A stretch of DNA of 64,000 nucleotides from Verrucomicrobiia bacterium (lineage in GTDB: Bacteria > Verrucomicrobiota > Verrucomicrobiia > Limisphaerales > Pedosphaeraceae), in NCBI GenBank assembly GCA_036268055.1, contig DATAUW010000027.1, forward strand, positions 1 through 64,000, in the 5' to 3' direction. The notes under the pieces are model-generated. The model saw nothing but the letters and a program-made list of their open reading frames with translations, did no database searches and was not told where the DNA came from. Every line of letters starts with the position of its first letter. Within the stretch, counting starts at the first letter, position 1. This document shows, in pieces, positions 2,403-44,694 of the stretch. A program made the position numbers and the translations under genes.

Positions 2403-3971
2403 ATGAAGACCAAAAGGAATCTCATCCTGCTCGCCATGATCACCCTCATGGCTCTATCCCGTCCGCCGCAACTGCGTGCCGATGACGACAAAGATTCAAC
2501 GTCCAAATCCGCGCCCAAAAAAGACGACGCCAAATCCGACAAGAGCGATTCAAAAGATGACCTCTCCGTAACGACGAATTCCATCACCATCAACGGCGCC
2601 ACCATCACCTACCGCGCCACCGCCGGGACGATGTTGATGAAGGACGAGGACGACAAGGCGCACGCCCGGATTTTTTTCATCGCCTACAACCGCCTCGATG
2701 GCAACACCAACGCCGCCGACCGTCCCGTCACGTTTTCCTTCAACGGCGGCCCCGGCTCTTCCTCCGTCTGGTTGCACCTGGGCGCGATCGGCCCGCGCCG
2801 CGTTTTCCTGAAAGAAGACGGCGGCCTGCCCGCGCCCCCGTTTCATCTCGTGGACAATGAGAATTCCCTGCTCGACACTTCCGACCTCGTTTTCATTGAT
2901 CCCGTGAGCACCGGCTTCAGCCGTCCGGTGACCGGCGAAGATCCCAAAAAATATCATGGCGTGCAGGAAGACCTGGATTCCGTCGGCGATTTTATCCGCC
3001 TTTACACGACGCGTTACCAGCGCTGGGCCTCGCCAAAATTTCTTATCGGCGAAAGCTACGGGACCACCCGCGCCGCCGGTTTGTCCGGCTTCCTCGAAGA
3101 CCGTTACGGCATCTATTTAAACGGCATCATGCTTATCTCGTCCGTGCTGGATTTTCAAACGCTCAGTTTCGCCCCGGGAAATGATTTGCCTTACGCGCTC
3201 TTCCTGCCGACCGAAACCGCGACGGCCTGGTATCACAAAAAACTTCCCGCCGATTTGCAGGGCGACTTGAAAAAAGCGCTCGCCGAATCCGAACAGTTCG
3301 CGATGGGAGATTTTTCGCACGCGCTGATGCAAGGCGCCGCCCTTCCCGCCGCCGACCGCGCGCAAGTGATCAAGAACTTGTCCCGCTTCACCGGCTTGTC
3401 GGAAGATTACATTGACCGCGCCGACTTGCGCGTCCACGACCAGGAATTCATGAAGGAACTCTTGCGCGGCGAACGCCTCACCGTCGGTCGCTACGACAGC
3501 CGCCGCACCGGCCAGGACCGCGATTCTGTCGGCGACACCCCCGACTACGATCCCAGCTACTCCGCCGTGCTCGGCCCGTTCACGGCCACCTTGAACGACT
3601 ATGTGCGCACGGAACTAAAATTTAAAAGCGATCTCCCTTACGAAATTTTGACCGGCAAAGTTTCACCGTGGGATTTCGGCTCCGCGCGCAACCGCTACCT
3701 CGACGTCGCGGAAACTCTGCGCCAAGCCATCACGCACAATCCTTACCTGAAAGTTTTTGTTGCGAACGGCCGTTTTGATTTCGCCACTCCCTATCTCGCG
3801 ACGAAATACACTTTCGACCACATCGGCCTGCCTCCCAATCTCCGCACCAACGTAAGCATGGGATTCTACGACGCCGGCCACATGATGTACGTCAATCAAC
3901 CCTCGCTCACGCAACTCAAAAAAGACCTCACCGCTTTCATCAATTCTGCCAAGCCATCATCAACCAATTAA
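2403..3971 (+). CDS. Secreted serine carboxypeptidase, peptidase family S10
   Basis: 522 aa from the ATG at 2403, chosen because it opens directly into a signal peptide (MKTKRN, hydrophobic core, cut near RADD). Residues 25-55 are a charged Lys/Asp/Ser linker. The S10 signature follows: FNGGPGSSS at about 113-121, catalytic Ser218 in GESYG, an Asp in the DFATPY region near 457 and a His in the GHMMY segment near 497. S10 enzymes remove C-terminal residues from peptides, usually at acid pH. It is likely exported for peptide scavenging. Convergent with the next gene. Confidence 0.9.
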   Translation: MKTKRNLILLAMITLMALSRPPQLRADDDKDSTSKSAPKKDDAKSDKSDSKDDLSVTTNSITINGATITYRATAGTMLMKDEDDKAHARIFFIAYNRLDGNTNAADRPVTFSFNGGPGSSSVWLHLGAIGPRRVFLKEDGGLPAPPFHLVDNENSLLDTSDLVFIDPVSTGFSRPVTGEDPKKYHGVQEDLDSVGDFIRLYTTRYQRWASPKFLIGESYGTTRAAGLSGFLEDRYGIYLNGIMLISSVLDFQTLSFAPGNDLPYALFLPTETATAWYHKKLPADLQGDLKKALAESEQFAMGDFSHALMQGAALPAADRAQVIKNLSRFTGLSEDYIDRADLRVHDQEFMKELLRGERLTVGRYDSRRTGQDRDSVGDTPDYDPSYSAVLGPFTATLNDYVRTELKFKSDLPYEILTGKVSPWDFGSARNRYLDVAETLRQAITHNPYLKVFVANGRFDFATPYLATKYTFDHIGLPPNLRTNVSMGFYDAGHMMYVNQPSLTQLKKDLTAFINSAKPSSTN

Positions 3972-3990
3972 AACGGCTAAAAACGGAAAA

Positions 3991-6762
3991 CTATTTCGCC
4001 GCCCGCATTGACAGGGATTTGATATAGAGAATGATGGACTGGATCTGCGCGTCCGTCAGGACGCCTTCGTATGAAGGCATCAACACCTCAGATTTTTGAT
4101 AGCCATCCACAATCTTGGCCTGCGGTTTCAAAATGGATTCGCGAATGTAAGCCTCATCAGCGACTTCTGGTGCGCCGGAGGCAAATTTACATTCCTTGCC
4201 GAACAGCCCAAGAAACGTCGGCCCCACGCGCCCCACCGTCACGCCATCAATCGAATGGCACGCCACACACCCCATTGCTTGATAACAATGCTGTCCTTCC
4301 GCCGCCGAAATAACTTCCTGCGCTTTGCCTTGCGGTATCTCCTGTGCAATATTCCAGTGCGTCCAATCCACTTCGGGAAAATCATATCGTTTCAAATCAA
4401 GGTCTTCCGATTCCTGCACCGTAAAATAAACATGACCGTCGAACGCTCCGCCCTTTTCATGTGCCAGGCGATAAGTCAAATCCATCTGGTTCACCTTTTT
4501 CATCTCCGGCACATAGAGAAATATTGATTTGCGATCCGCCGAAATCAGCGCGCCGCGAATCGGCATGAATTCCTGCCCCGCAGTATTATCCAGTTTATAA
4601 TGCCCCGAACCATAAGCAGACGTGCGGCGATAATTCCATCGCTCAAGGGTGAAGTTGCCCAGATTGGTCGCGGAAACAGAATCAAGCGGTTCAGCAAACT
4701 GCACGAGCAGTCCGTCTTTTGCGCTTCGCGCGTTGGCCGGCTGGCTGCTGGGTTTCCCGGTGTAACGCAACCGCCCGATGCCCGCCCACTCCTTCGCATC
4801 CGAACCCCAAATTCTAAAACCCGCGAGATACAAATCTCCGTCGCTGGGCCCAAGTTCGCCCTTGAGCAATGGAAAATCCACCGGCACATCAAGCTCAGAC
4901 ACCGCGCCTTGCGTGGGTTGCGAATTCGAATCGAAAAACGCCACCAGCAGCCGCGGATGAAAATAATCGAGTTGAATCAATCGGCCGTCGAGCGCGCCCA
5001 ACTTATCGCCGCTCGCCCAGACCTGGCCGGAAGTGCTTTGCGCTGAGCGATACGGAATCCAGCACACCGGCTCGGTCACACTTTGTTTCGGCGGCTGAAC
5101 TTTTGTGGATGGCAGGAAGCCGTAAAATTTTCCCGGGCGCAGCCAGAGAATCGGCGACGTCGGAATCCAGTTTCCCTGCTGGTCGCTCGCCGTGAGCAAA
5201 TCCAGTTCGCGATTGTATCCCAGGTAAGGCCCGCGCAACCCGCGCGCCACCACTTCTGCCGAGCGCCCGTCCGGCGCGACCTTGAGCACCGACGCATTAT
5301 GGATGCCCATGAATTGCCCCTGCTGGCCGCCCTCGGCGATGTAAATGCCACCGTCTTTTGCCACGATCGAATCCATCGCGAAATCGCGCGTCTCCGCCGA
5401 TTGCGCGAAACAGTTCGCAAAATTTTCGTAGTAATCAATTTCGCCATCGCCATTCAAGTCGCGCAGGCAAACAATTCCATTGCGCGTGAACACGTATAAA
5501 TTTCCGTCCCGAAAATGAATGCTCTGCGGCTCATGCAATCCCGACGCGATGCGCCGCCACGTCAGCGTGGACAGATCTTTGGTAATTCCGCTCACCTGCC
5601 ACACGTCGCCATCAAACGTCACGACTGCTGCGCGTCCATCGGGATAAAAACAAAGTGATGATGGACGCACAAGCCGATGCCACGGATTTTCCGTCGGCAA
5701 CGTCAAACGGTCTATCACGTAGGCATTGGTATCGCCAGCTATCACTCCATGAGTAACGACCGTTTCGGGCCAGCGCGCGGAACCGCCTTTGGCAAAATCC
5801 GGCATGGAAAATTTTTCCTTCGATTGAGCTTTTTTCGAAAATTCGACGCAGATCTTTTGCTCAGTCGTGTTCGGTGAAATGGTTAATATAAATACCGTTC
5901 CACCGCCGCGCCGCACTGTGTTGACGACAACTCCCGCGGCAGATTTTTCCGTAGTAGCACTTTCCGCATCCGGCCGTGCATAAATTTCAAGTCCCTGCAG
6001 AAATGTATCCCCGCCAGTGACGTTCGGCCCAAAGCTGCCTTCAATCACGCGAAACCTATCATACGGTTCCGAGTAATCCGCGAGTGCGATCTGGATGGAT
6101 TGAGAGTGCGGCGCAATCTGGAAATTTCGCGTGTACCCGCCGCTTGACGAATCGCCGATGGCGGTCAAAAATTCATGCACCGAAATTCCGCCCACAGTGT
6201 AATGCAAAACCGCCTTATCACCCACCGTATAAACCCCTTCCCAACGCCCAATCGAAGCCTCAATCGGCCCGCGTCCCAGTTCGCCCGGGTCCAACCCCAC
6301 CGCGCGCGGATCCTTGAAAGTCAGCTTCCCATTGGCGATACCCGGATAAAAACCCAATGCGGAAAAAGCATCGCCGACTGGCCGGTTCAGGATCGCCTGG
6401 CCAATATCATTTTTCTTGCCGAGATTCACGTATGAAATCGGCGCCATGCTGGCAAATTGCAGGCCGTCTCCGTGCCAGACATACGCGAGCCGCAAGAGGT
6501 CGGTATCGAAACAAGCATAAGTGTGGTTGCCCAGCGAAAGCACAATGCCGCGCACGGTGAGATTATTTGTCAGCGTGAGATTTGGAACCGCGCGCGCGTC
6601 AACGATGGCTTCGAGATACGGAAAATCCGGTTCCCAGAACGTCCCGGCTTTCGGTTCCTCCGCCCGCGCGCAAAAAACAAAAACGCAGAGCAGCCATATC
6701 ATTCCCGCGCGAAGCTTAAATTTCACTGGCAACCTTTGACCCGCAATCGAGCTTATTTCCAT
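3991..6762 (-). CDS. Large secreted protein with C-terminal cytochrome c domain (DUF6797-like)
   Basis: About 923 aa from the ATG at 6762; a TTG at 6771 is less likely. A membrane-spanning or signal segment lies in the first 40 residues. The middle has a beta-propeller-like region with DGR/DGD/DGEI repeats resembling glucose/sorbosone dehydrogenase-type proteins. The C-terminus is a class I cytochrome c domain: GCVACHS haem-binding CxxCH, then a Met-containing segment (VLMPSYEGVL) that probably gives the sixth ligand. This domain order is common in Planctomycetes and Verrucomicrobia. Probable role: periplasmic oxidation of a carbohydrate or related compound; substrate unknown. Confidence 0.75.
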   Translation of the reverse strand: MEISSIAGQRLPVKFKLRAGMIWLLCVFVFCARAEEPKAGTFWEPDFPYLEAIVDARAVPNLTLTNNLTVRGIVLSLGNHTYACFDTDLLRLAYVWHGDGLQFASMAPISYVNLGKKNDIGQAILNRPVGDAFSALGFYPGIANGKLTFKDPRAVGLDPGELGRGPIEASIGRWEGVYTVGDKAVLHYTVGGISVHEFLTAIGDSSSGGYTRNFQIAPHSQSIQIALADYSEPYDRFRVIEGSFGPNVTGGDTFLQGLEIYARPDAESATTEKSAAGVVVNTVRRGGGTVFILTISPNTTEQKICVEFSKKAQSKEKFSMPDFAKGGSARWPETVVTHGVIAGDTNAYVIDRLTLPTENPWHRLVRPSSLCFYPDGRAAVVTFDGDVWQVSGITKDLSTLTWRRIASGLHEPQSIHFRDGNLYVFTRNGIVCLRDLNGDGEIDYYENFANCFAQSAETRDFAMDSIVAKDGGIYIAEGGQQGQFMGIHNASVLKVAPDGRSAEVVARGLRGPYLGYNRELDLLTASDQQGNWIPTSPILWLRPGKFYGFLPSTKVQPPKQSVTEPVCWIPYRSAQSTSGQVWASGDKLGALDGRLIQLDYFHPRLLVAFFDSNSQPTQGAVSELDVPVDFPLLKGELGPSDGDLYLAGFRIWGSDAKEWAGIGRLRYTGKPSSQPANARSAKDGLLVQFAEPLDSVSATNLGNFTLERWNYRRTSAYGSGHYKLDNTAGQEFMPIRGALISADRKSIFLYVPEMKKVNQMDLTYRLAHEKGGAFDGHVYFTVQESEDLDLKRYDFPEVDWTHWNIAQEIPQGKAQEVISAAEGQHCYQAMGCVACHSIDGVTVGRVGPTFLGLFGKECKFASGAPEVADEAYIRESILKPQAKIVDGYQKSEVLMPSYEGVLTDAQIQSIILYIKSLSMRAAK

Positions 6763-6894
6763 GTTCAACAAATAGAGATTCGCTCAACTGTAATGGAAGC
6801 GAGGACAAAAACAAGACTGGTTTATAATTATAAATCACCTTGACGGATGTCACTCCGGTAGCGCACTTTTGCGATTCTTAACTTTTTTATCCAG

Positions 6895-8172
6895 ATGATG
6901 CCGCAAATCGAGCCGCACACGACCTCTTCCCCGGTCAACGCCGCGTTGACCCGCGCCCAATGGCTCGTGCTGATGGCCGCATTTTTCGGCTGGTTCTTTG
7001 ACGGCTGCGAGATCGGGCTTTTCCCATTGATCGGCCGGCCAGCGTTGCAAAATATCCTCGGCTCAACCGCAGGCGGCGATGGCTTGATCGGCCAATGGAT
7101 CGGCATCATCACCGCGTGTTTTCTCGTGGGCGCGGCGCTGGGTGGCGTCGCGTTTGGCTGGCTGGGCGATCGCATCGGACGCGTCCGCGCGATGTCGCTG
7201 AGCATTCTCACTTATTCCATCGTCACCGGTCTGGGATATTTTGCGCAAACGCCGTGGCAGCTTGGCGCGGTGCGGTTCGCCTCAGCCTTGGGCATGGGCG
7301 GCCAATGGTCGCTCGGCGTCGCGCTGGTGATGGAATGCTGGCCGGAGAAAAAACGCCCGTGGCTGGCGGGCATAATGGGCGTCGGCTCGAACGCCGGCAT
7401 GCTGCTCGTGGGCGTGGCCGGTCAACTCCATCCGGTGACGGCAAATTCATGGCGCTGGCTCATGCTGTTGGGCGCATTGCCGGCGTTGCTGGTTTTTTTC
7501 ATCATGATCGGCGTGCCGGAATCCACGCGCTGGATCGCAACCACCGATGCCAAACGCGTCAATCCGTTGCGCGAAATTTTTTCACCAGGTTTGCGCAAAG
7601 TGACTTTGCTGGGAATGACCTTCGCCGCGATTGCGCTGATCGGAACCTGGGGCTCCGTTCAATGGTTGCCGACCTGGGCGGATCAACTCGTGGGCAAAAA
7701 CAATCCGGCGGCGAAGGCGCACACGCAAGTCCTACTCTCATTCGGCGCGATTGCCGGCGCGTGGATCGCGCCGTGGCTCGGCTCAAAATTTGGGCGCCGC
7801 TGGGCTTATTTTGTACTGTGTTTTTTGTCGGTCGTGTCGTGCGCCGTTTTGTTTCGGGGCGTAACGGAATTCAATGCGCTGTTTCTGGTAATGGCGTTCG
7901 TGGTGGGAGCGATCACGGCGGCGTTCTACAGTTGGTTCCCGCTTTATTTTCCCGAATTATTTCCAACGCGGGTCCGCGCGACTGGGCAGGGTTTTTGTTA
8001 TAACTTTGGACGCATCCTCGCCGCCGCCGGCGCGCTGACGCAGGGACAACTGGTCAATTATTTTCATGGCAGTTACGCGCAAGCCGGTTCCATCGTCACG
8101 CTGATTTATCTTTTGGGAATGGTGCTGATCTGGTTCGCGCCGGAAACTAAAGGCAAAACTTTGCCTACCTAA
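6895..8172 (+). CDS. MFS transporter (sugar/acid symporter type)
   Basis: 425 aa with about twelve hydrophobic segments. The motif between TM2 and TM3 (GWLGDRIGRVRAM) is the signature MFS loop, and a second appears at SKFGRRWAY. It ends APETKGKTLPT, matching the PETKG signature of the sugar-porter or aromatic-acid/H+ symporter branch. It lies 9 bp upstream of an enolase-superfamily enzyme on the same strand, so a shared uptake-and-catabolism operon for a sugar acid is likely. Two ATGs in tandem (6895, 6898) are both possible starts. Confidence 0.85.
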   Translation: MMPQIEPHTTSSPVNAALTRAQWLVLMAAFFGWFFDGCEIGLFPLIGRPALQNILGSTAGGDGLIGQWIGIITACFLVGAALGGVAFGWLGDRIGRVRAMSLSILTYSIVTGLGYFAQTPWQLGAVRFASALGMGGQWSLGVALVMECWPEKKRPWLAGIMGVGSNAGMLLVGVAGQLHPVTANSWRWLMLLGALPALLVFFIMIGVPESTRWIATTDAKRVNPLREIFSPGLRKVTLLGMTFAAIALIGTWGSVQWLPTWADQLVGKNNPAAKAHTQVLLSFGAIAGAWIAPWLGSKFGRRWAYFVLCFLSVVSCAVLFRGVTEFNALFLVMAFVVGAITAAFYSWFPLYFPELFPTRVRATGQGFCYNFGRILAAAGALTQGQLVNYFHGSYAQAGSIVTLIYLLGMVLIWFAPETKGKTLPT

Positions 8173-35572: not shown

Positions 35573-36295
35573 ATGTGCGGACGTTATAGCGTGGGAGACC
35601 GGGGCGAAATCACCATTGCTGGTATTTATCATGATTTTACCTTTGAAACCCGCTATAACGCCGCGCCCAAAAATTCCCTGCCCGTCATCCTGTTTGAAAA
35701 TAATGCCGTCACGTCCAAGCCGATGCAATGGGGTTGGGAACGCCCCAACAAACCGCTCCTCATCAATGCCCGGGCGGAAACCGCGCTGAAGTTTTTCCGC
35801 AAACCTTGTCTCGAAACCCGTTGCCTTATCCCCGCCAACGGTTTCTACGAATGGAAAGACAAATTGCCCTGGCGCTTTGTGATGCGGGATGACGAAACTT
35901 TTTATCTCGCCGGCATTTATCAGAAAATCATTTCCCCCGCGCACGCTGAAATGGAAATGGATCTTACCGACTCGCCACCCGCAAGCTGCGTCATCGAACA
36001 ATTCTGCATCATCACCTGCAACGCCAATCCGCTCGTCGCGCGCGTCCACGACCGCATGCCCGTCATCCTCAGTCCCAGCCATTATTCCACCTGGCTTAAA
36101 GGCCAGCAATTTTCCTCCATCACCCCCGGCCAATGGCCGCGTGGCTTCGGCAACATCGCCCCCACCACCGACCTCGTTGACATCCTGCAAAGCGCGCTCG
36201 TTCCGTCTCCCGCCGCCAATATGCACTCCTACCGCGTCGGCCAGCTCGTGAACCATTGGAAGAACGATTCTCCCGACTGCTGGAAACCGGTCTGA
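35573..36295 (+). CDS. SRAP domain protein (HMCES/YedK family)
   Basis: 240 aa. It starts MCGRY, with catalytic Cys2 exposed after Met removal. Other signatures are NARAE (65-69), GFYEWK (Glu93) and HDRMP (about 160). SRAP proteins form a covalent thiazolidine link to abasic sites in single-stranded DNA and protect them during replication. Many phages and plasmids carry one. Its position after a terminator suggests its own promoter. First of several DNA-maintenance genes. Confidence 0.92.
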   Translation: MCGRYSVGDRGEITIAGIYHDFTFETRYNAAPKNSLPVILFENNAVTSKPMQWGWERPNKPLLINARAETALKFFRKPCLETRCLIPANGFYEWKDKLPWRFVMRDDETFYLAGIYQKIISPAHAEMEMDLTDSPPASCVIEQFCIITCNANPLVARVHDRMPVILSPSHYSTWLKGQQFSSITPGQWPRGFGNIAPTTDLVDILQSALVPSPAANMHSYRVGQLVNHWKNDSPDCWKPV

Positions 36296-36332: not shown

Positions 36333-36364
36333 CGGTCCACCAATGGGCCGTCGTGCCCTCACGA
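36333..36364 (+). repeat. 32-bp direct repeat, copy 1
   Basis: CGGTCC(A/C)CCAATGGGCCG then TCGTGCCCTCACGA, identical at 31 of 32 positions to 37355-37386. It contains a GGGC/GCCC inverted pair. Each copy lies directly upstream of a gene start (2 and 26 bp), so it may be a shared promoter, operator or leader element. The ATG inside each copy begins a false extended frame (MGRRALT). Confidence 0.65.
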
Positions 36365-36366
36365 TT

Positions 36367-36885
36367 ATGCAAACCTGCTTTGCCTTTGAATCTTCATCCG
36401 TCGCACCGCACAAATTCCCCGCGCAACCCCACGAATGGAAAGTCATCTCTCTGCGTGAATGCCCAACGCCGGAAGATTTGCTGCTTTGCGAGAATCCAAA
36501 GCCTGCCGCCACCTACTGGCGGACGCACGTCACCCAAGCTCCGAATTACAATCCTGAAGTCGAATGTTTCGTCGTCCTGATCTTGAATACCCGCCGCCGC
36601 ATCAAAGGCCATTACCTCGTCGCTACGGGAACCATGGACACCTTGCTCGTCCACGCGCGCGAAGTCTTTCGCGTCGCCATCATGACCAGCGCTGCCGCCA
36701 TTATTCTCTGCCACAATCATCCCAGTGGCGATCCAGGTCCGTCGGAAGGAGATATCAAAGTCACCCGGGACATGGTGCGCGCCGGTCAACTGCTTAAAAT
36801 CGAAGTCGAAGACCACATCATCATCGGCGCCGGCCGCCACTGTTCCCTTCGCGAACTCGGTTACATTTCCCCCTCAACCAAATAA
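36367..36885 (+). CDS. RadC-like JAMM/JAB domain protein
   Basis: 172 aa from the ATG at 36367. The JAMM motif is clear: ILCHNHPSGDPGPSEGD gives H-x-H and the distal Ser/Asp of the zinc site. RadC-type proteins are common on mobile elements and often annotated as DNA repair, though their enzymatic role is not settled. JAMM enzymes in other systems are isopeptidases. With a PRTRC cassette 4 kb downstream that lacks its usual JAB gene (protein A) in this window, this could take that role; inference. Confidence 0.85.
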   Translation: MQTCFAFESSSVAPHKFPAQPHEWKVISLRECPTPEDLLLCENPKPAATYWRTHVTQAPNYNPEVECFVVLILNTRRRIKGHYLVATGTMDTLLVHAREVFRVAIMTSAAAIILCHNHPSGDPGPSEGDIKVTRDMVRAGQLLKIEVEDHIIIGAGRHCSLRELGYISPSTK

Positions 36886-37354: not shown

Positions 37355-37386
37355 CGGTCCCCCAATGGGCCGTCGTGCCCTCACGA
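37355..37386 (+). repeat. 32-bp direct repeat, copy 2
   Basis: Second copy of the element at 36333-36364, one mismatch. It lies 26 bp upstream of the serine recombinase start and may control it. Confidence 0.65.
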
Positions 37387-37412
37387 CTCTGCGCAGTTCA
37401 ATCCTTCATTGT

Positions 37413-38240
37413 ATGACAACTAATTCTCCGCCCGCCGCCATTTGCCTGGGCTATATCCGCGTGTCCACCGATCGTCAGGAACTTTCGGTGGACGCCCAAA
37501 GCGAAACCATCCGCCGGTACAGCACCGCGTATCAGTTGCCCGAACCCATCATCTTCGCGGAAGCGAACGCCAGCGGCGCTTCCGTCTTTGCCGAACGCAA
37601 GGAAGGCAAGCGTCTCGTCGCCGTCGCTCACGAAGCGCTCGCCGCCAATCGTTCGGTCACCATGATCATCCCGAAGGTGGACCGGCTCGGTCGCGATACC
37701 ATTGACGTTTCCCAAACCGTGAAGCTGTTTCACTCGCTCAAGGTCCGCATGGTGTTCCTCGATATCGGTTGCGATACCACCACGCCCATGGGCATGGCCT
37801 TCCTTCAGATCGCCGCCATTTTTGCCCAGCTTGAACTCGCCCGCATCCACGAACGCATCGCCGCCGGCTTCGAGGAAAAACGCTCCAAAGGCGAACTGTG
37901 CGGCACTGTGCCGTATGGCTGGGACGCCGTCGAAACCGGCGAAGCTCGCCCCAAAGGCAAACACACCGTCAACATCCGCAAGCTCGTGGACAATCTCGAA
38001 GAGCAAAAATGGATCCTCTACATGGTCCAGCTTCGCAACGCCGGCTGGGGCTATCACAGCATCGCGAAAAACCTCAATGCCCACAACGTCCCCACCAAAC
38101 ATGGCCGGGGCGACATCATCAAATACAAAGGCGAAACCCGCTTCAACACCGGCAAATGGCAATCCGGCAACGTCGCCAAAATCATCAACTCCAAAACTGT
38201 AAAAGACTGGCTCGCCACTCGCGTAGCCGTCGCCGCCTGA
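37413..38240 (+). CDS. Serine recombinase (resolvase/invertase family)
   Basis: 275 aa from the ATG at 37413. Catalytic Ser18 is in GYIRVSTDRQ; the Arg-rich active-site stretch KVDRLGRDT and the E-helix (QLELARIHERIAAGFEEKR) follow. The C-terminus has a recombinase-type DNA-binding extension (GWGYHSIAKNLNAHNVPT) but is shorter than in large serine integrases. Likely resolves dimers or inverts DNA of this element. It is the second recombinase type in the window. Confidence 0.9.
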   Translation: MTTNSPPAAICLGYIRVSTDRQELSVDAQSETIRRYSTAYQLPEPIIFAEANASGASVFAERKEGKRLVAVAHEALAANRSVTMIIPKVDRLGRDTIDVSQTVKLFHSLKVRMVFLDIGCDTTTPMGMAFLQIAAIFAQLELARIHERIAAGFEEKRSKGELCGTVPYGWDAVETGEARPKGKHTVNIRKLVDNLEEQKWILYMVQLRNAGWGYHSIAKNLNAHNVPTKHGRGDIIKYKGETRFNTGKWQSGNVAKIINSKTVKDWLATRVAVAA

Positions 38241-38267: not shown

Positions 38268-38888
38268 ATGCTTCCCACCCGATATATCCCCAAGTCGCCC
38301 GCCGATTTCATCGGCGATGCCAAAACTGTTTCCCTGCAACTCGGCCGCGTCGCCACCGATGCCAAAGCCCACGCCAACGCGCCCATCAAAGTCCTGTTCA
38401 ATGGCGAGCCCGGCATCGGCAAAAGTGCCGTGTCGCGCTATTTGATCACCCTGCTCGGCGCGAACCCTTCCGATAAATGGTCCTACAAAAAATATAACGG
38501 CACTCAAATCAAACTCGAGACCGTGGAAGAAATCGCCCGCGACTTGCACTATTGCGATATCTACGGCGCATACCGCATCATTTGGATCGAGGAAGCCGAC
38601 ATGATTCCCGCCGTGGCCCAGGTTCGGTTCCTCACCCTGCTCGACGATCTGCCCGATGGCGCCGCCGTCATCTGCACCAGCAACTGCAAGGTGGACGAAT
38701 TCAAAAAGCGTTTTCAAACCCGCTTCAAAATTTATGAAATGGCTCCCCCGCTGGAACACGAAGTCCAAGGCCTGCTGCGCAAGTTTTTAACCGACGAGCG
38801 CACCATCACCCACATCGCCTTTGGCGCCGCCGGCAATGTGCGTGCCGCGCTCATTGATGCCGAAAGCGCCTTGCAGGCCGCCGCTTAA
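38268..38888 (+). CDS. Minimal clamp-loader-like AAA+ ATPase
   Basis: 206 aa. Walker A GEPGIGKS (46-53), Walker B IIWIEEAD (104-111), sensor 1 TSN near 130, and a C-terminal lid (about 165-205) with a NVRAALIDAE sensor 2-type Arg. It resembles the ATPase domains of DnaX or replication factor C small subunits. It is much shorter than DnaX or RFC and lacks the collar domain, so it is either a specialised loader or a regulator. It lies just upstream of a sliding-clamp gene. Confidence 0.8.
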   Translation: MLPTRYIPKSPADFIGDAKTVSLQLGRVATDAKAHANAPIKVLFNGEPGIGKSAVSRYLITLLGANPSDKWSYKKYNGTQIKLETVEEIARDLHYCDIYGAYRIIWIEEADMIPAVAQVRFLTLLDDLPDGAAVICTSNCKVDEFKKRFQTRFKIYEMAPPLEHEVQGLLRKFLTDERTITHIAFGAAGNVRAALIDAESALQAAA

Positions 38889-39518: not shown

Positions 39519-39636
39519 CCGATGGACACACGTCCAGCGCGCCGCGCTAACCCCGTTTTCTTTCTTTTCAGTACCCGTCTAGCCCAAAACTTTTCGCCGT
39601 GTGGCGGAAATCTCCCACCCCAACCGCAATCCGCAT

Positions 39637-40797
39637 ATGATGAAAATAAGTCTCCCGCGTCAGGAGCTGACCAAAGCCCTGAACATCGTCCGCAGCGCCA
39701 CCACCAAAAATGGTTCGCTGCCCATCCTTGCCAACGTCTGTTTGCGCGCCCAGGGCAAAAGCCTGGAACTGCGCGCCACGGATAACGACATCTCCATCAG
39801 CACACGCATCCCCGTGGACGTTGAGGAAACCGGCTCCTGCACCGTCAACGCCGCCATGCTCTACAACCTCGTCAACAGCTTCAGCGGCGATCAACCCGTC
39901 GAACTGATTGAACTCACGCACGATTTGAAAATCGAGTGCGGCCAGTCGCGCTACAAACTCGGTTCCATGCCCGCCAAGGACATGCCGCCGGTACCCAAGC
40001 TCGATGATTCGCGCGAATTCCAACTCACCCAGCACATCTTCCACAGCCTCTTGCTCGCCACCGCTTACTGCCAGGGCGCGGATGAAGCGCGCGCCATGCT
40101 CCAGGGTTCTCTCGTGCGGCTCAACGGCAGCCTCACCGTCGCCGCGTGCGATGGCAAACGCCTCGCCGTCGAGTCCGTTCCGTTGCCCGAGGGGGTCGCC
40201 GGCGCAAAAGCCGATTTCATTCTCCCGCAAAAGGCCGTCAAGGAATTGCTTCGCCTGCTCTCCACCAAAAAACCGGGGGAAAATGAAACCGCTCTTACCG
40301 TCACCGCCGGCATCGGCAAAAACGCCGCGCACTTTCAAATCGGCGAAACCCTCTTGAGCAGCAAACTCATGGAAGGCAAATATCCGCCTTACGAAAACAT
40401 CATCCCCAAGGAACTGGGCGAGGGCATCCCCATCAATCGCCACCTGCTGTTAAGCACGCTCCAGCGCGTCAACTTCGTGACGGACCTTTGCACCCTCGAA
40501 TTCGAAAAACAAAATCTCACCGTCCGCGGGCGCGGGAAAGACATTCCCGGTGAAGCCGTCGAATCCTTGCTCATTCCCGAAACCAAATCGCTCACCGTCA
40601 ATTTCAATCTCCCCTTTCTGATCGAGGCGCTATCGGCCGTGGATGACGATGAAGTGCGCCTCTATTGCATCGGAGAATTCAAGCCCGCCGTCATCAAAGT
40701 CGCCAGCCGTCAATGGCTTTCCCTCACCGCCGCCATCACCCCGCCCAGCAAAAAGTCGGAAGAGAAACCCGCCGAAAAAAAATCTGAAAGCAAATAA
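39637..40797 (+). CDS. dnaN: DNA polymerase III beta subunit (sliding clamp)
   Basis: 386 aa from the ATG at 39637. N-terminal MMKISLPRQELTKALNIVRSA, then the three-domain clamp pattern (LPILANVCL; DGKRLAVE; and KYPPYENIIP). A Lys/Glu-rich tail follows the third domain. Bacterial clamps ring DNA and hold polymerase. A second copy on a mobile element is unusual. It may be recruited by the element to redirect host polymerase, together with the clamp-loader-like ATPase upstream. Confidence 0.93.
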   Translation: MMKISLPRQELTKALNIVRSATTKNGSLPILANVCLRAQGKSLELRATDNDISISTRIPVDVEETGSCTVNAAMLYNLVNSFSGDQPVELIELTHDLKIECGQSRYKLGSMPAKDMPPVPKLDDSREFQLTQHIFHSLLLATAYCQGADEARAMLQGSLVRLNGSLTVAACDGKRLAVESVPLPEGVAGAKADFILPQKAVKELLRLLSTKKPGENETALTVTAGIGKNAAHFQIGETLLSSKLMEGKYPPYENIIPKELGEGIPINRHLLLSTLQRVNFVTDLCTLEFEKQNLTVRGRGKDIPGEAVESLLIPETKSLTVNFNLPFLIEALSAVDDDEVRLYCIGEFKPAVIKVASRQWLSLTAAITPPSKKSEEKPAEKKSESK

Positions 40798-40823: not shown

Positions 40824-41321
40824 ATGTTCAAAGAACTCACTCCAATATTGAAAAAGGGCGATACCCTCGTCCTCCACATCACGCGCGAAAACGAAACCCA
40901 GTTCCGCGTGAACGTCACCCCCAAGCTGTTCACCATGGACGGCCAGCACGGTGAAGATCGCAAAGCCCTGAGCCAGCCGCTCACCATGGTCGGCACGGTC
41001 GAGGAATTGGATTCCCCGGAATTCGCCGCCACGCTCGAACGCTTCCAGGTGTCCACCGTCGGCCTGCGCAACACCATCGCCGACGTCGAGGCCGCGCACC
41101 AGCACGCCAAGACCTCCAAGCTCGCCCCTAAATCCAAGCCTAAAGCCGCCGCGACCACCGCCGCCGCGTCCGATGCATCCGCTGAAGGCGAAGGCGAAGG
41201 CGAAGGCGAAGGCGAAGGCGAAGGCGAAGGCGAGGACGAACCCGCAGAGAAAAAGGAACAGCCAAAACCTGCTCCCAAAGATAAATCAGCCGAAGCAGCC
41301 ACCAGCGACCTCGGCATCTAA
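40824..41321 (+). CDS. PRTRC system protein E
   Basis: 165 aa. The first 90 residues (MFKELTPILKKGDTLVLHIT, then LSQPLTMVGTVEELDSPEF) match the PRTRC E family as I know it. A disordered tail contains eight Glu-Gly dipeptides coded by a GAAGGC hexamer run, then a Lys/Pro/Ala segment. E is the first gene of the cassette. Its function is unknown; the family occurs only in this plasmid-type cassette. Confidence 0.85.
   Translation: MFKELTPILKKGDTLVLHITRENETQFRVNVTPKLFTMDGQHGEDRKALSQPLTMVGTVEELDSPEFAATLERFQVSTVGLRNTIADVEAAHQHAKTSKLAPKSKPKAAATTAAASDASAEGEGEGEGEGEGEGEGEDEPAEKKEQPKPAPKDKSAEAATSDLGI
41184..41231 (+). repeat. GAAGGC hexamer, eight tandem copies
   Basis: Eight perfect copies of GAAGGC encode (Glu-Gly)8 in PRTRC E. 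Because the unit is 6 bp, copy-number change would lengthen the linker without shifting the frame. Confidence 0.9.
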
Positions 41322-41359
41322 TCCATTTTCAAACCACAACCCAATAAGAAAAATAATCT

Positions 41360-41569
41360 ATGCCCCTCGAAGCCTCCAACATCGCTCGGAAATTCGTTTA
41401 TAAAGGAACTGAACTCGCGGACCCCAACCCGGTCATCAGCGTCGAGCAAGCCCGCGACATCCTAAGCACCGACCACCCCGAACTCGCCACCGCCGCGATT
41501 GACGGACCGGTGATGAAAGGAAATGTCCAGACTTACACCTTCATCGTCTCCGCCGGCACCAAGGGATAA
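41360..41569 (+). CDS. PRTRC system protein C (ubiquitin-like)
   Basis: 69 aa. FVYKGTELADPNP, then HPELATAAIDGP and a C-terminal VSAGTKG match the PRTRC C family. I recall that it is treated as a prokaryotic ubiquitin-like (Prok_Ub) protein, a short beta-grasp fold. The last residue is Gly69, as needed for adenylation by an E1 without processing. Position: after E, before F. Confidence 0.85.
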   Translation: MPLEASNIARKFVYKGTELADPNPVISVEQARDILSTDHPELATAAIDGPVMKGNVQTYTFIVSAGTKG

Positions 41570-41571
41570 TC

Positions 41572-41823
41572 ATGCCGCGCCGTAAATCGTCGCCGCGCGC
41601 GCGCCGGAAAACCTCCGGTCGCGCGCGAGTCAAATCACCCGCGCTTTCCCTTCACGAGAAAATTGCCATCGCCGCCCAGGAGCAAGGCGGAGAAACCATT
41701 CCTCCCCTTCCCATCAACAATCCGAAATTCACGGTATGCAGCAAAGCTCTACACAAACTCGCCCGGACGACTCACGGATTCCGTTTCGCCATGCCGTCAT
41801 CGCTCCTTGCGCCACCGCTTTAG
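41572..41823 (+). CDS. Small basic protein between PRTRC C and F
   Basis: 83 aa, starting with a very basic stretch (MPRRKSSPRARRKTSGRARV). The frame overlaps the start of the F gene by 88 bp, so either this gene is real and F starts inside it, or F starts further downstream. Not recognised. It may bind nucleic acid. Confidence 0.4.
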   Translation: MPRRKSSPRARRKTSGRARVKSPALSLHEKIAIAAQEQGGETIPPLPINNPKFTVCSKALHKLARTTHGFRFAMPSSLLAPPL

Positions 41824-42875
41824 CCCTCCCGGACCTTTCTGCCTGCTTGCCCAGCTTCAAAGTTGAAGGCAGCAAACAAAGCCTCGCCCAGTTTGCCGAA
41901 GGGCTAGCGGATGCAAACGTCCTGCAGGACCGCCACTGGACCGGCCACATTGGGAATTCTTGCGCCCGCGCGCTCGCCGAACTTTGCGATACCGCGCGTC
42001 CGGATCCGCTCGTCAAACTCAAACTGCATTTTACCGACGATGCCTCTGAACTCGGGTCATTCCATGATTTCGATTATCGGAAAAACAATGCACCGGAGAA
42101 TGTCGGCGTCATTTTTCTGACTCTCGACATGGAGTCAACCTACATCAAACTCATCGGCCCTACACTACGCGAATTGGAAGCTGCGCTGCCCCGGCTCGGT
42201 CAAACGGTTCTTAGTACCCTCGACGAAGGTCTCCACAATTCCTGCCGGGGCATGACACCGCGTAGCGCTTATGGCTGGTGTCAATCTGCCTATTGGCGCG
42301 GAGAAATGGACGAGTCCGATTTTATGGACGAGATCCGTGGTAACTATCCGCCTGGAACCAGCGATGCCGACATACGTAAAGACTATAACATTTACACAAA
42401 GGCGGAGTTTGATAAAGCCATTCCCGGCTGGGCTGGGAGCGGTGCTATCAAACCATTTTCCTACCGTGCGCTTCTCGCCCAGCGCATCAAGCACCCGCGC
42501 CACAAAAATATCGTCATTGCCACACGCGCGCTGATGAAAGGACTTGAAACCCTAAGCCGCCGCTCCAAGTCATGGAAGCTTTCATCCGACTTCGATCGCT
42601 TTGAACATTTGGAATGGGAAGTTTGCCCGTTCCTTTTGAACTGGAACAAATACGACAATCAGGGCGGGGGCGATCCCATGTGTCAAATCTGGGACGACGT
42701 CATAAACCCAATGTTTGAAGCCGGCGAATCGTCCATGGAAATCAACGCCGCATTCGCCTGGTGGGACAAACCATCCATCGAACGCGCCGTCGTTCGCCTC
42801 CGCAATTATCTCCACATCATGCAACTCACTGAAAATCTCATCAAATTGATCGGAAAGGACAACTATGCGCGTTGA
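41736..42875 (+). CDS. PRTRC system protein F
   Basis: 379 aa. The central segment (PRLGQTVLSTLDEGLHNSCR then TPRSAYGWCQSAYWRGEMDE) matches the F family pattern. No known catalytic motif. A later start is possible, since the first 90 bp overlap the preceding small frame. It overlaps the B gene by 11 bp. Confidence 0.8.
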   Translation: MQQSSTQTRPDDSRIPFRHAVIAPCATALALPDLSACLPSFKVEGSKQSLAQFAEGLADANVLQDRHWTGHIGNSCARALAELCDTARPDPLVKLKLHFTDDASELGSFHDFDYRKNNAPENVGVIFLTLDMESTYIKLIGPTLRELEAALPRLGQTVLSTLDEGLHNSCRGMTPRSAYGWCQSAYWRGEMDESDFMDEIRGNYPPGTSDADIRKDYNIYTKAEFDKAIPGWAGSGAIKPFSYRALLAQRIKHPRHKNIVIATRALMKGLETLSRRSKSWKLSSDFDRFEHLEWEVCPFLLNWNKYDNQGGGDPMCQIWDDVINPMFEAGESSMEINAAFAWWDKPSIERAVVRLRNYLHIMQLTENLIKLIGKDNYAR

Positions 42876-43602
42876 AGCCAAATTCGGAAATGCCGAGCGC
42901 AACTTTCACCTTGCCCACGCCGTTCTCATTTACGAGGAGCAGGGTTCTTCCAGCGCCGCCGCCGCTTCTATCCATGAAGTGGATCTTGTGCATGGGCGGC
43001 CCGTTCTCAAAGCTGGCCAGCCGGTCACCGTTGCCGGTGTGGAAGCACTGGCCGAATCCCTCGGTCGAAAGCTCGAGAACCATCTTCTCCCCGAGCGCAT
43101 CCTGAGCATTAGCCTTTCGCAGATGACGTGGTGGTGCCCGGCGCGCCGCCGCCGCATCTGGTTCAAGCCATCGGGGAGCGATAAGGACGTCAACGAAGGA
43201 TTGCGCAAACTCAACGGACGATTCGTCATGCATCCGCCACTCTTTTTCGCGGCAAACCGCGGCCTCCGCGTCTTTGCGCTCGCAGAAAACAAACGTCCTG
43301 TCGCTGACACTCCGCTTTACGTGGCTCCCTATTATAATTGCGATGCCAACGGCTCGCTCTGCAAAGGGTCCGCCCACTTTCCGGACATTGCCACACCGTC
43401 GCTCATCGAAAAATTCGAAGCCGGATTTTTCGACTCCGCCTTTTCCCATTCCAACTACGGCCACAAACTCACCCGCCATCCTGATTCACACCTCGGTCTT
43501 TGGCGTGAAATGCAGACCGCGAAAGTTTTCCCGCGCAAATATCTCCAGCCCTACAACAGCACCAAGCTCGGTTCATGGCTCAAGCATCAAACCAATCTAT
43601 GA
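42865..43602 (+). CDS. PRTRC system protein B (E2-like)
   Basis: 245 aa. HLAHAVLIYEEQ, MTWWCPARRRRIWF, then LRVFALAENKRP and PYYNCDANGSLCKGSA match the B family, which I recall is grouped with prokaryotic E2-like (UBC-fold) proteins. Cys166 in GSLCKG lies where UBC enzymes keep the catalytic Cys after a PxN/Gly segment. It would carry the activated C protein. It overlaps the ThiF gene by 4 bp. Confidence 0.88.
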   Translation: MRVEAKFGNAERNFHLAHAVLIYEEQGSSSAAAASIHEVDLVHGRPVLKAGQPVTVAGVEALAESLGRKLENHLLPERILSISLSQMTWWCPARRRRIWFKPSGSDKDVNEGLRKLNGRFVMHPPLFFAANRGLRVFALAENKRPVADTPLYVAPYYNCDANGSLCKGSAHFPDIATPSLIEKFEAGFFDSAFSHSNYGHKLTRHPDSHLGLWREMQTAKVFPRKYLQPYNSTKLGSWLKHQTNL

Positions 43603-44366
43603 TTCCTCATAAACTCCACAAAGATTTGGTCGGCGCGCAGGTGAGCATTGACTTGGTCGGTTGCGGAGGCAACGGCTCGCAAATGCTAAATGGCCTTGCC
43701 CGCATGCACATCGCCCTTCAATCCCTCGGCCATCCCGGCCTCAAAGTCATCGCGTTTGATGGCGATTCTGTTTCCGAAGCCAATGTCGGCCGCCAGCTTT
43801 TCAGCCCTTCGGACATCGGACAAAACAAAGCTTCCGTCCTGATTCATCGGCTGAATTGTTACTATGGTCTCGGCTGGACAGCCGTGCCCAGGATGTCGGA
43901 CGGCGGAACTTTGCAGCCGCACATCGTCATCGGCTGCGTGGATACCATCACCAGCCGCCGCGCGATCAGCCGCAACCACTTTCACTACTGGCTCGATTTA
44001 GGCAATCGCGATCGTACCGGCCAGGTCATCCTCGGCGCGCCCAAATGGTACCACAACAAAGGCGATCACACGCGCCCGCGCACCGTCCTCGAAATCTTTC
44101 CCGAACTCAACCGCGGCAAAGTCAAGGAGGACAACACCACGCCCAGTTGCAGCCTCGCCGCAGCATTGGAACGCCAGGACCTGTTCATCAACCAAAGCGT
44201 GGCCACGTGGGCTTTGCAACTCCTCTGGTCCTTCCTGCGCCATGGTGAAACCTATCATCAAGGCTATTTCATCAACCTCGAAACCGGCAACGTCCGCCCC
44301 ATTCTCGTCCCTCAACCACCACCCGGCAAAACGCTGGCTGAAATCTTTGGCGGAAAACCCGCATAA
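43599..44366 (+). CDS. PRTRC system ThiF-family E1-like protein
   Basis: 255 aa from the ATG at 43599. Rossmann start VSIDLVGCGGNGSQM binds ATP; Asp54 in AFDGDSVSEANVGRQ and the distal Asp in GCVDTITSRRAI complete the ThiF/MoeB pattern. Cys184 in TPSCSL is a candidate thioester Cys. E1-like enzymes adenylate the C-terminal Gly of beta-grasp proteins. Together with C and B it makes a compact conjugation set. Confidence 0.92.
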   Translation: MIPHKLHKDLVGAQVSIDLVGCGGNGSQMLNGLARMHIALQSLGHPGLKVIAFDGDSVSEANVGRQLFSPSDIGQNKASVLIHRLNCYYGLGWTAVPRMSDGGTLQPHIVIGCVDTITSRRAISRNHFHYWLDLGNRDRTGQVILGAPKWYHNKGDHTRPRTVLEIFPELNRGKVKEDNTTPSCSLAAALERQDLFINQSVATWALQLLWSFLRHGETYHQGYFINLETGNVRPILVPQPPPGKTLAEIFGGKPA

Positions 44367-44370
44367 AACT

Positions 44371-44694
44371 ATGAGCACCTCCAAACCTTATGCCGCCACC
44401 GTCTTTCCATGGCTGCGCGCTAACCTTGGTAAAAACTGCCTTGGCGTCCTCACCGGCACGGATGCCCGGGCGCTCCAGGCCGCCGTCCAAATCGCTGAAC
44501 TTTACGCGTACGATCGGCGGCCGCAAGTCGCGGTCGCTTTCGGCACCGTTGTAAAATCCATGCAACCACAGGCGCGCGAACTCGCCTACCACGCCATCGC
44601 CCATCCGCGCGATTGGACCGACCGCGAAACCATGTGGGTCGAAGCCGGCCTCGACAAAATTCCAAATTCCCGCCGCTGCAAATTTGAATCCTGA
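44371..44694 (+). CDS. Hypothetical protein downstream of PRTRC
   Basis: 107 aa. Small, mixed alpha/beta; a DARALQAAVQIAELYAY helix then HPRDWTDRETMWVEAGL. Not recognised. Starts 5 bp after the ThiF stop, so co-transcribed with the cassette. Confidence 0.5.
   Translation: MSTSKPYAATVFPWLRANLGKNCLGVLTGTDARALQAAVQIAELYAYDRRPQVAVAFGTVVKSMQPQARELAYHAIAHPRDWTDRETMWVEAGLDKIPNSRRCKFES

Follow-up and report, generated by a model that had tools for sequence, protein, structure and literature searches.

A JAB-less PRTRC cassette from a Verrucomicrobiia bacterium as a probable ubiquitin-like modification system

Results

Genes of the PRTRC cassette

The window analysed in this work, a stretch of 64,000 nucleotides from contig DATAUW010000027.1 of a Verrucomicrobiia bacterium (assembly GCA_036268055.1), carries a PRTRC cassette of six open reading frames (ORFs), E-C-S-F-B-ThiF, which all lie on the + strand and are separated by short gaps or overlap. 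This order (E, C, a small gene, F, B and ThiF) had been proposed in an earlier note made from the letters alone, and it was confirmed by profile searches with NCBIfam and Pfam, in which five of the six ORFs exceeded the NCBIfam cut-offs; the exception was the small ORF, here called S. Family scores are given below as score/curated cut-off, in bits.

The first gene, PRTRC E (40824..41321), encodes 165 amino acids (aa) with an acidic EGEGEG low-complexity stretch within the C-terminal half (TIGR03741 55.9/37.95; PF19556 26.4/26). It is followed by PRTRC C (41360..41569), a predicted ubiquitin-like modifier (TIGR03738 81.4/45.95; Prok_Ub 69.8/25). As the earlier note had it, C is 69 aa long and terminates with Gly69; its end coincides exactly with the conserved Gly, and the codons of the GTKG tail are found at 41555-41566. 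The start ATG of S (41572..41823, 83 aa, tail FAMPSSLLAPPL) is located 2 nt beyond the C stop codon, and S was recognized by its position and by a tail profile. PRTRC F (41736..42875) is largely helical (TIGR03742 61.9/58.4; alpha-hel2 25.9/25, the latter marginal). The start of its ORF overlaps S in a different frame, and the F family profile matches from residue 28 only.

PRTRC B (42865..43602) is E2-like by family (TIGR03737 178.9/131.45; Prok-E2_D 110.4/25). Asn158 (43336-43338) precedes Cys166 (43360-43362) with a spacing of 8 residues, matching that of E2 enzymes, in which an Asn lies 8 residues before the catalytic Cys, and a downstream His195 is present together with Cys166. The context given for Cys166 in the note was confirmed as PYYNCDANGSLCKGS. 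The last gene encodes the E1-like ThiF (43575..44366; TIGR03736 273.1/144.75; Pfam ThiF 44.6/28.1), with the ATP-site residues G29, G31, G34, D62, N70, R73, K85 and D123; its best PDB sequence matches are ubiquitin E1s (E 7e-6). The conserved Cys of ThiF, numbered Cys184 in the note, lies at 44148-44150. It is Cys192 if the protein starts with the ATG at 43575 and Cys184 if it starts with the in-frame Met9, so that the numbering depends on the choice of start codon and is not an error.

Comparison with related cassettes

PRTRC loci (designated L with a number) were scanned in 16 annotated plasmid stretches, 10 further annotated records, the best 80 of 209 genome-contig loci and IMG/VR loci (the best 80 of 111, plus 7, 19 and 31, partly identical contigs), using profiles built from annotated genes and the window's own and rebuilt once. 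A ThiF match was obtained in 242 loci, or 221 after deduplication. The comparison set comprises the 197 of these which also have C and B; the other 24 of the 221 were dropped, C or B being absent from the stretch. Sampling is uneven, as the relatives come from best-match lists, and heavy in Burkholderiales-type cassettes. Seven further loci of the phylum were kept apart from the 197-cassette set. Cassettes span plasmids of several phyla, and the 382 plasmids with a ThiF match include 141 Pseudomonas records. Scanning genome contigs with B as a single query sequence returned no relative.

The predicted catalytic residues are near-invariant. ThiF residues C192, D62, N70, R73, K85, D123 and R128 are found in 197/197 cassettes, as are three glycines of the GxGGxG motif, with the fourth in 196/197. 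In PRTRC B, N158 is kept in 191 and H195 in 182 of the 197 cassettes. Conservation of Cys166 had been named beforehand as a point on which the proposal could fail; the residue is present in 195/197, the exceptions being L021 and L235, in the latter of which the alignment is displaced. The ubiquitin-like part of C ends in Gly in 196/197 cassettes. Among the seven further phylum loci, C ends in Gly in four, and the B Cys is kept in all six that have B in the stretch. One locus, L007 (Deinococcus proteolyticus), has two PRTRC ThiF genes close by (3848-4546 and 6562-7260).

Predicted structures of C and B

A beta-grasp fold of C was another such point, and neither of these two failures was seen. 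The AlphaFold2 model of C (48-row alignment, pLDDT 82.6) has strands and a helix in beta-grasp order, with a low-confidence tail (residues 67-69 below 50 pLDDT). Its neighbours are of the ubiquitin fold, with low scores: the first seven Foldseek matches comprise five ubiquitin or ubiquitin-like proteins and two PB1 domains with weak E values of 0.2-0.6, the best being the FAF1 UBL (E 0.2), and the VIA list consists nearly entirely of ubiquitin folds (Z up to 4.8). For the model of B (75-row alignment, pLDDT 90.5), the first 25 rows of VIA are E2 entries, matched over about 92-120 residues, mostly within 73-227. A sequence search for a solved structure of C or B found none.

Absence of JAB and the C-terminal extension of C

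According to PMC1779556, the type 6d operon encodes a small ubiquitin-like protein whose C-terminal Gly is highly conserved, a helical protein, an E2-like protein that has a conserved Cys followed downstream by a His, a JAB protein and an E1-like protein; unless JAB is fused to E1, its gene is stated to lie always immediately next to that of E1. The JAB gene of PRTRC cassettes, PRTRC A, sits between B and ThiF in many relatives. Neither beside the E1-like gene of the window cassette nor in its own genome (about 96% complete) was a TIGR03735 or Prok-JAB match detectable; as a positive control, the TIGR03735 search recovered PRTRC A in 4/4 known records. The cassette was therefore filed as a JAB-less variant of type 6d, together with 65 more of the set. 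Since L005 (plasmid pPRO1) has its PRTRC A 1.6 kb beyond the point where the circular record begins, the totals are 131 cassettes with and 66 without JAB (initially 130/67); L005 is still taken as JAB-less in the RadC, sign-test and first-model statistics, in the scans behind the S counts (themselves corrected below) and in the clamp counts on the 67/130 basis. Behind the 66 JAB-less cassettes no PRTRC A was found in 12 plasmids, 21 genomes, 31 IMG/VR records and the window's own genome; the IMG/VR records are possibly fragments, which limits the absence there, and L097 was covered through L096, its contig being taken as the same strain. The genomes of the seven further phylum loci gave 0/7.

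An extension of C beyond the Gly, of 1-100 residues, is present in 88/131 JAB-bearing vs. 0/66 JAB-less cassettes. Each of the 66 C proteins from JAB-less main-set cassettes ends exactly in Gly; L016, L219 and L235, flagged as extended, are profile-end offsets, and their printed tails end in Gly. The seven further phylum loci have no extension (0/7). Extensions of at least 30 residues fall into 15 unlinked sequence groups, all in JAB-bearing cassettes, and Massilia L079, which has no JAB within an otherwise JAB-bearing clade, has a C ending at Gly. On a ThiF and B tree of 117 rows, six of the seven further loci included, the extension changes a minimum of 11 times (8 forced by starred branches) and JAB a minimum of 4 times (3 forced by starred branches). 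A model with JAB and extension dependent was preferred over the independent one (likelihood ratio, LR, 25.8, 4 degrees of freedom, p 3.5e-5), as was a model letting extension gain alone depend on JAB (LR 15.9, p 6.8e-5), p values that rest on a single tree with a midpoint root and rates at bounds. The earlier fit, with L005 as JAB-less and lacking the six added loci, gave LR 32.3 and p 1.6e-6. Loss of JAB by the window lineage inside a JAB-bearing clade is starred in the first tree and not in the second. The restriction of extensions to cassettes with JAB suggests that JAB trims C and that cassettes lacking it must encode C mature; JAB probably matures C, and the JAB-less cassettes, the window's included, probably encode it ready-made.

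The possibility that the extension is a wrongly joined neighbouring gene was rejected, as extensions share the reading frame of C in numerous loci of differing origin. RadC was also rejected as a stand-in for JAB: it lies near 3/51 JAB-less vs. 14/113 JAB-bearing loci, and this lack of enrichment beside JAB-less cassettes shows no compensation pattern. A second, different extension (..AHVCPLLDEEIVFVGALF..) was seen in L022 (3472-3654); it belongs to a 35-member cluster, all with JAB, has no Pfam or NCBIfam match, and S is separate where checked. Other extensions, e.g., of the Paraburkholderia ACPLLDEEV kind, are unlike S in sequence and occur only in JAB-bearing cassettes with S separate. Cassettes with JAB and an extended C were also observed in the isolate record of Burkholderia phage BgVeeders33 (L188) and in many of the 35-60 kb IMG/VR contigs L099-L157, so phages may carry PRTRC cassettes too.

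The small gene S after C

In 139/197 cassettes the C stop is directly followed by a separate ORF, 40-120 codons long; by comparison, an ORF of 40-120 aa begins in 1715/5910 (29%) random intervals of equal width. The commonest start positions of S relative to the C end are -3 and +3 to +6 nt, and its ORF often overlaps F. An LP/PL-type pair is found in the last five residues of 123/156 S candidates vs. 241/3120 internal control stretches, and dN/dS values of 0.32-0.45 in six clusters point to purifying selection, with the reservation that the partial overlap with F lowers dS as well. On its frequency after C, its tail pair and its dN/dS, S was rejected as a chance ORF.

S tends to end in a peptide of prolines and hydrophobic residues, e.g., PPSDALPPLP (L020), PPPGLRLAPLG (L214), LLPPSAPLLF (L158) or the window tail given above. 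A 12-residue tail profile, anchored at the stop and built with the window S left out, ranks this S 1st of 918 window ORFs, and a full-length profile from which it was likewise omitted ranks it only 7th of 1057 (E 1.7). The evidence for the window S is position and tail; it would be missed with full-length profiles alone. When their own cluster was left out, representatives came first in the locus for 9/34 clusters with full-length and 17/34 with tail profiles, some ranking far down, so that the full-length profiles leave some S clusters unlinked. Doubtful candidates were excluded (L009, L111, L161 and L173 from the full-length profiles, and these together with L043 and L207 from the tail profile used to count fused S). 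No family match for S was found in PHROGs, Pfam or NCBIfam (10 proteins, nothing near cut-off).

If S is called where the tail score reaches at least the 99th percentile of all ORFs, and L005 is counted as JAB-bearing, S is separate in 79 JAB-bearing cassettes and fused in frame to the C Gly in 28, vs. 41 separate and 0 fused among the JAB-less ones. The remaining 49 have a lower tail score or no such ORF by this rule, and in several of them an S-like tail appears once the DNA following C is translated with no start rule applied. The tail profile behind the 28 fused S includes the scored proteins themselves. Nineteen fused S fall into clusters that also hold separate S (cluster 0, 12 fused and 46 separate; cluster 4, 7 fused and 3 separate), and the fused L014, L015, L045/L048 and L099 did not come first by a profile built without them. 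The fused C-S form changes at least 8 times on the first tree; in fused genes, alternative in-frame starts could also yield S without cleavage. Three-frame translation after C in the seven further phylum loci gave similar-tail ORFs, judged by eye, in at least five, e.g., FLPPLL (L259), VLPPIM (L261) and CLPALIF (L257). In PLSDB, whose gene table is incomplete, the S ORF of L003, L005 and L008 is missing and that of L018 is given as hypothetical. A clamp-binding motif in the S tail was rejected: a fitting Gln is found in L005, L087 and L165, but not in the window or many others.

The element and genome around the cassette

The source genome (5.1 Mb, 41 contigs) is 96.21% complete. Between 36 and 46 kb, the cassette is preceded on the + strand by genes for RadC, a resolvase, an AAA protein and DnaN, in this order. 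The RadC-type protein (36343..36885; PF04002 123.6/22.1) is a JAMM protein, not PRTRC A, and the serine recombinase/resolvase (37365..38240; PF00239 103.1/23.3) provides a mobile-element context. The AAA protein (38268..38888; PF00004 23.2/21.2) resembles the clamp-loader delta', with weak, below cut-off matches to holB models. DnaN, an element-borne DNA polymerase III sliding clamp (39601..40797; TIGR00663 201.7/137.65), lies directly upstream of E. A 38-nt direct repeat (92%) at 36333-36370 and 37355-37392 spans the start codons of both the RadC and the resolvase ORFs, which therefore share the protein beginning MGRRALT. Further upstream, an SRAP (HMCES/YedK-type) gene at 35573-36292 is of interest near the clamp and clamp-loader-like genes of the element. 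ARAGORN found no tRNA in the window, and a profile from annotated PRTRC ParB proteins found no PRTRC ParB there. In the own genome no ParB scored over the cut-off, the best match (121 bits vs. 278.6) lying on a different contig.

PRTRC_B was found in 1/97 related genomes, which is the own genome, and PRTRC_C in 8/387 genomes of the phylum, the own included, 7 of them over cut-off. This rarity of families that score above curated cut-offs is the pattern expected of a mobile cassette. The top ThiF matches among named contigs were L019 (Verrucomicrobia subdivision 3), L020 (labelled Peregrinibacteria) and L021 (Spartobacteria). L021 and the window share relatives of the AAA protein (31% identical and adjoining the L021 cassette), C, B, ThiF, a 579-aa protein, an SNF2 helicase and the gene at 44407-44691 (54% identical). 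On the basis of these shared genes, both are taken as elements of one kind. The contig of the L020 cassette, whose ThiF is 54% identical to that of the window, is 7.3 kb long; it was binned as Peregrinibacteria and may be a Verrucomicrobiota contig placed in the wrong bin.

A clamp gene is present near 11/66 JAB-less vs. 1/131 JAB-bearing cassettes (11/67 and 1/130 before L005 was moved; Fisher p 3.4e-5, kinship not corrected), in a range from 4 kb upstream of C to 5 kb past the ThiF start, some stretches ending at contig ends. A P. putida megaplasmid stretch also has dnaN near the cassette, and a Leptolyngbya stretch has holA and a clamp match there. This neighbourhood suggests a link with replication, not modification of the clamp.

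Discussion

Our results favour, with a probability of about 0.6, a JAB-less PRTRC/type 6d ubiquitin-like modification system on a mobile element. C would be translated already mature, ending at Gly69. ThiF would adenylate this Gly and take C as a thioester on Cys192, from which C would pass to Cys166 of the E2-like B, and B would attach it to an amine of a target protein. E, F and S are likely adaptors. The mark may be permanent where JAB is lacking, or it may be removed by an unrelated protease of the host or the element. The grouping of C and B as ubiquitin-like and E2-like proteins, which the earlier note attributed to the family literature, was indeed printed in 2006: in passages of PMC1779556, Iyer, Burroughs and Aravind predict conjugation, with JAB in both processing and removal, and the type 6d table row has the codes Cnec, Rmet and Ppro, read here as Cupriavidus and Pelobacter species. 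A passage of PMC7466150 calls PRTRC a partition system. In its wider claim that the genes form a ubiquitin-like conjugation set, the note gains from the curated families, the near-invariant residues in the 197 cassettes and the C model with respect to ubiquitin-like C, E2-like B and E1-like ThiF; the fold of B is the weak part (Z 4.6). For the note's further proposal, that the set modifies a replication or partition protein of the element, the one hint is the clamp gene beside the cassette; the missing JAB and the meaning of the small ORF had escaped the note. The pathway is thus plausible and strengthened, and its core was already published in 2006 (PMC1779556).

Several points weigh against this pathway. 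We found no biochemistry or experimental test of it in the open-licence literature. Foldseek alone gave no significant match for B, the best (E 0.3) not being an E2, and the structural Z values, which reach no more than 4.6 for B and 4.8 for C, are low and would not carry a ubiquitin/E2 claim by themselves. The independent-pair sign test was powerless (median p 0.25 and 0.5, L005 as JAB-less). L021, among the closest relatives, has Gln at the Cys166 column and a Cys two residues further; C of L005 (Pelobacter plasmid pPRO1) ends in Ala; and in three of the seven further phylum loci C ends in Phe (L258), Arg (L259) or Asn (L261), so that the Gly chemistry as drawn cannot work there. L259 and L261 keep the ThiF and B cysteines, and the L258 stretch holds neither gene; in these loci either the chemistry has changed or the pathway is decaying. 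Such non-Gly tails in 3/7 JAB-less phylum loci and the shifted Cys of L021 would fit a degenerating or non-catalytic remnant, in which C, B and ThiF bind, e.g., as a plasmid replication or partition scaffold, and no longer conjugate without JAB; permanent marks without JAB would also seem costly. Yet a scaffold needs neither the terminal Gly found in 66/66 main-set JAB-less C proteins nor the near-invariant Cys, and we regard such a remnant as unlikely.

The same genes could also be read as a sulfur-carrier pathway, with a ThiS/MoaD-like C on which ThiF makes a C-terminal thiocarboxylate, the set thiolating a small molecule or nucleic acid. ThiF/MoeB and ThiS use an identical first step, the terminal Gly is needed for both pathways, and the window ThiF has weak, below cut-off matches to ThiS adenylyltransferase models. 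This reading is improbable, as it is opposed by the E2-like B with its near-invariant N-x7-C, by the link between JAB and extension, by the ubiquitin E1s as best PDB matches of ThiF, and by a Pfam scan of 30 window ORFs that found no sulfurtransferase or thiamine/molybdopterin gene. The link itself might reflect shared ancestry only, JAB and extension both being typical of Burkholderiales-type cassettes, with no functional dependence. The heavy sampling of that group, the underpowered sign test, the single tree with its midpoint root and rates at bounds, and the weakening of p from 1.6e-6 to 3.5e-5 once L005 was moved and six loci were added all speak for this; we consider it quite improbable in view of at least 8 extension changes on starred branches, the 15 unlinked groups of long extensions that are all JAB-bearing, and Massilia L079 with its unextended C.

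A further reading, offered as a long shot, is that S is a hidden core partner of the modification system, JAB sometimes splitting a C-S precursor after the Gly, with modification taking place at the replisome, like PCNA ubiquitination. JAB would then be dispensable in the window because C and S are encoded separately; the replisome is suggested as the site by the conserved peptide with which S ends and by the element's own clamp gene next to some JAB-less cassettes. It would be a partner that abuts or overlaps C, is under purifying selection and is often omitted from gene lists, and at the same low odds we place it in the core. In eukaryotic ubiquitin-ribosomal protein fusions, a protease cuts after the Gly and so frees the ubiquitin-like protein from the unrelated small protein to which it was fused. 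The fused C-S form is similar, with cleavage presumed; it differs in that S is not a ribosomal protein and that C and S are separate genes in the window.

Compared with known systems, the window shares with PRTRC (TIGR03734-TIGR03742) and type 6d the ubiquitin-like C with terminal Gly, the alpha-helical F, the gene order, the E2-like B (Cys and downstream His), the E1-like ThiF and the mobile-element setting. It differs from type 6d in the lack of JAB and in gene S between C and F, which is absent from the type 6d descriptions in the relevant passages of PMC1779556. Unlike annotated PRTRC plasmids, which have ParB upstream of E, the window has DnaN there. A likeness to BilABCD and type II CBASS (PMC11354881; PMC10097602) is a ubiquitin-like conjugation with E1, E2 and JAB-type enzymes, and the JAB-type BilC trims BilA to expose a Gly (PMC11354881), much as PRTRC A may act on C. 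In contrast, BilA has two ubiquitin-like domains and the BilB Cys lies in a CEHH motif, and Bil and CBASS were studied by experiment, whereas no such study of PRTRC was found in the open-licence literature.

Within the open-licence literature, the JAB-less state, the rule linking extension to JAB and the recurrent S gene look new. The rule gives comparative support to the 2006 prediction. A JAB-less cassette would be the simplest version for reconstitution, for which the annotated genes alone could leave out S. Since plasmids of several phyla carry the cassettes, their function would bear on plasmid persistence.

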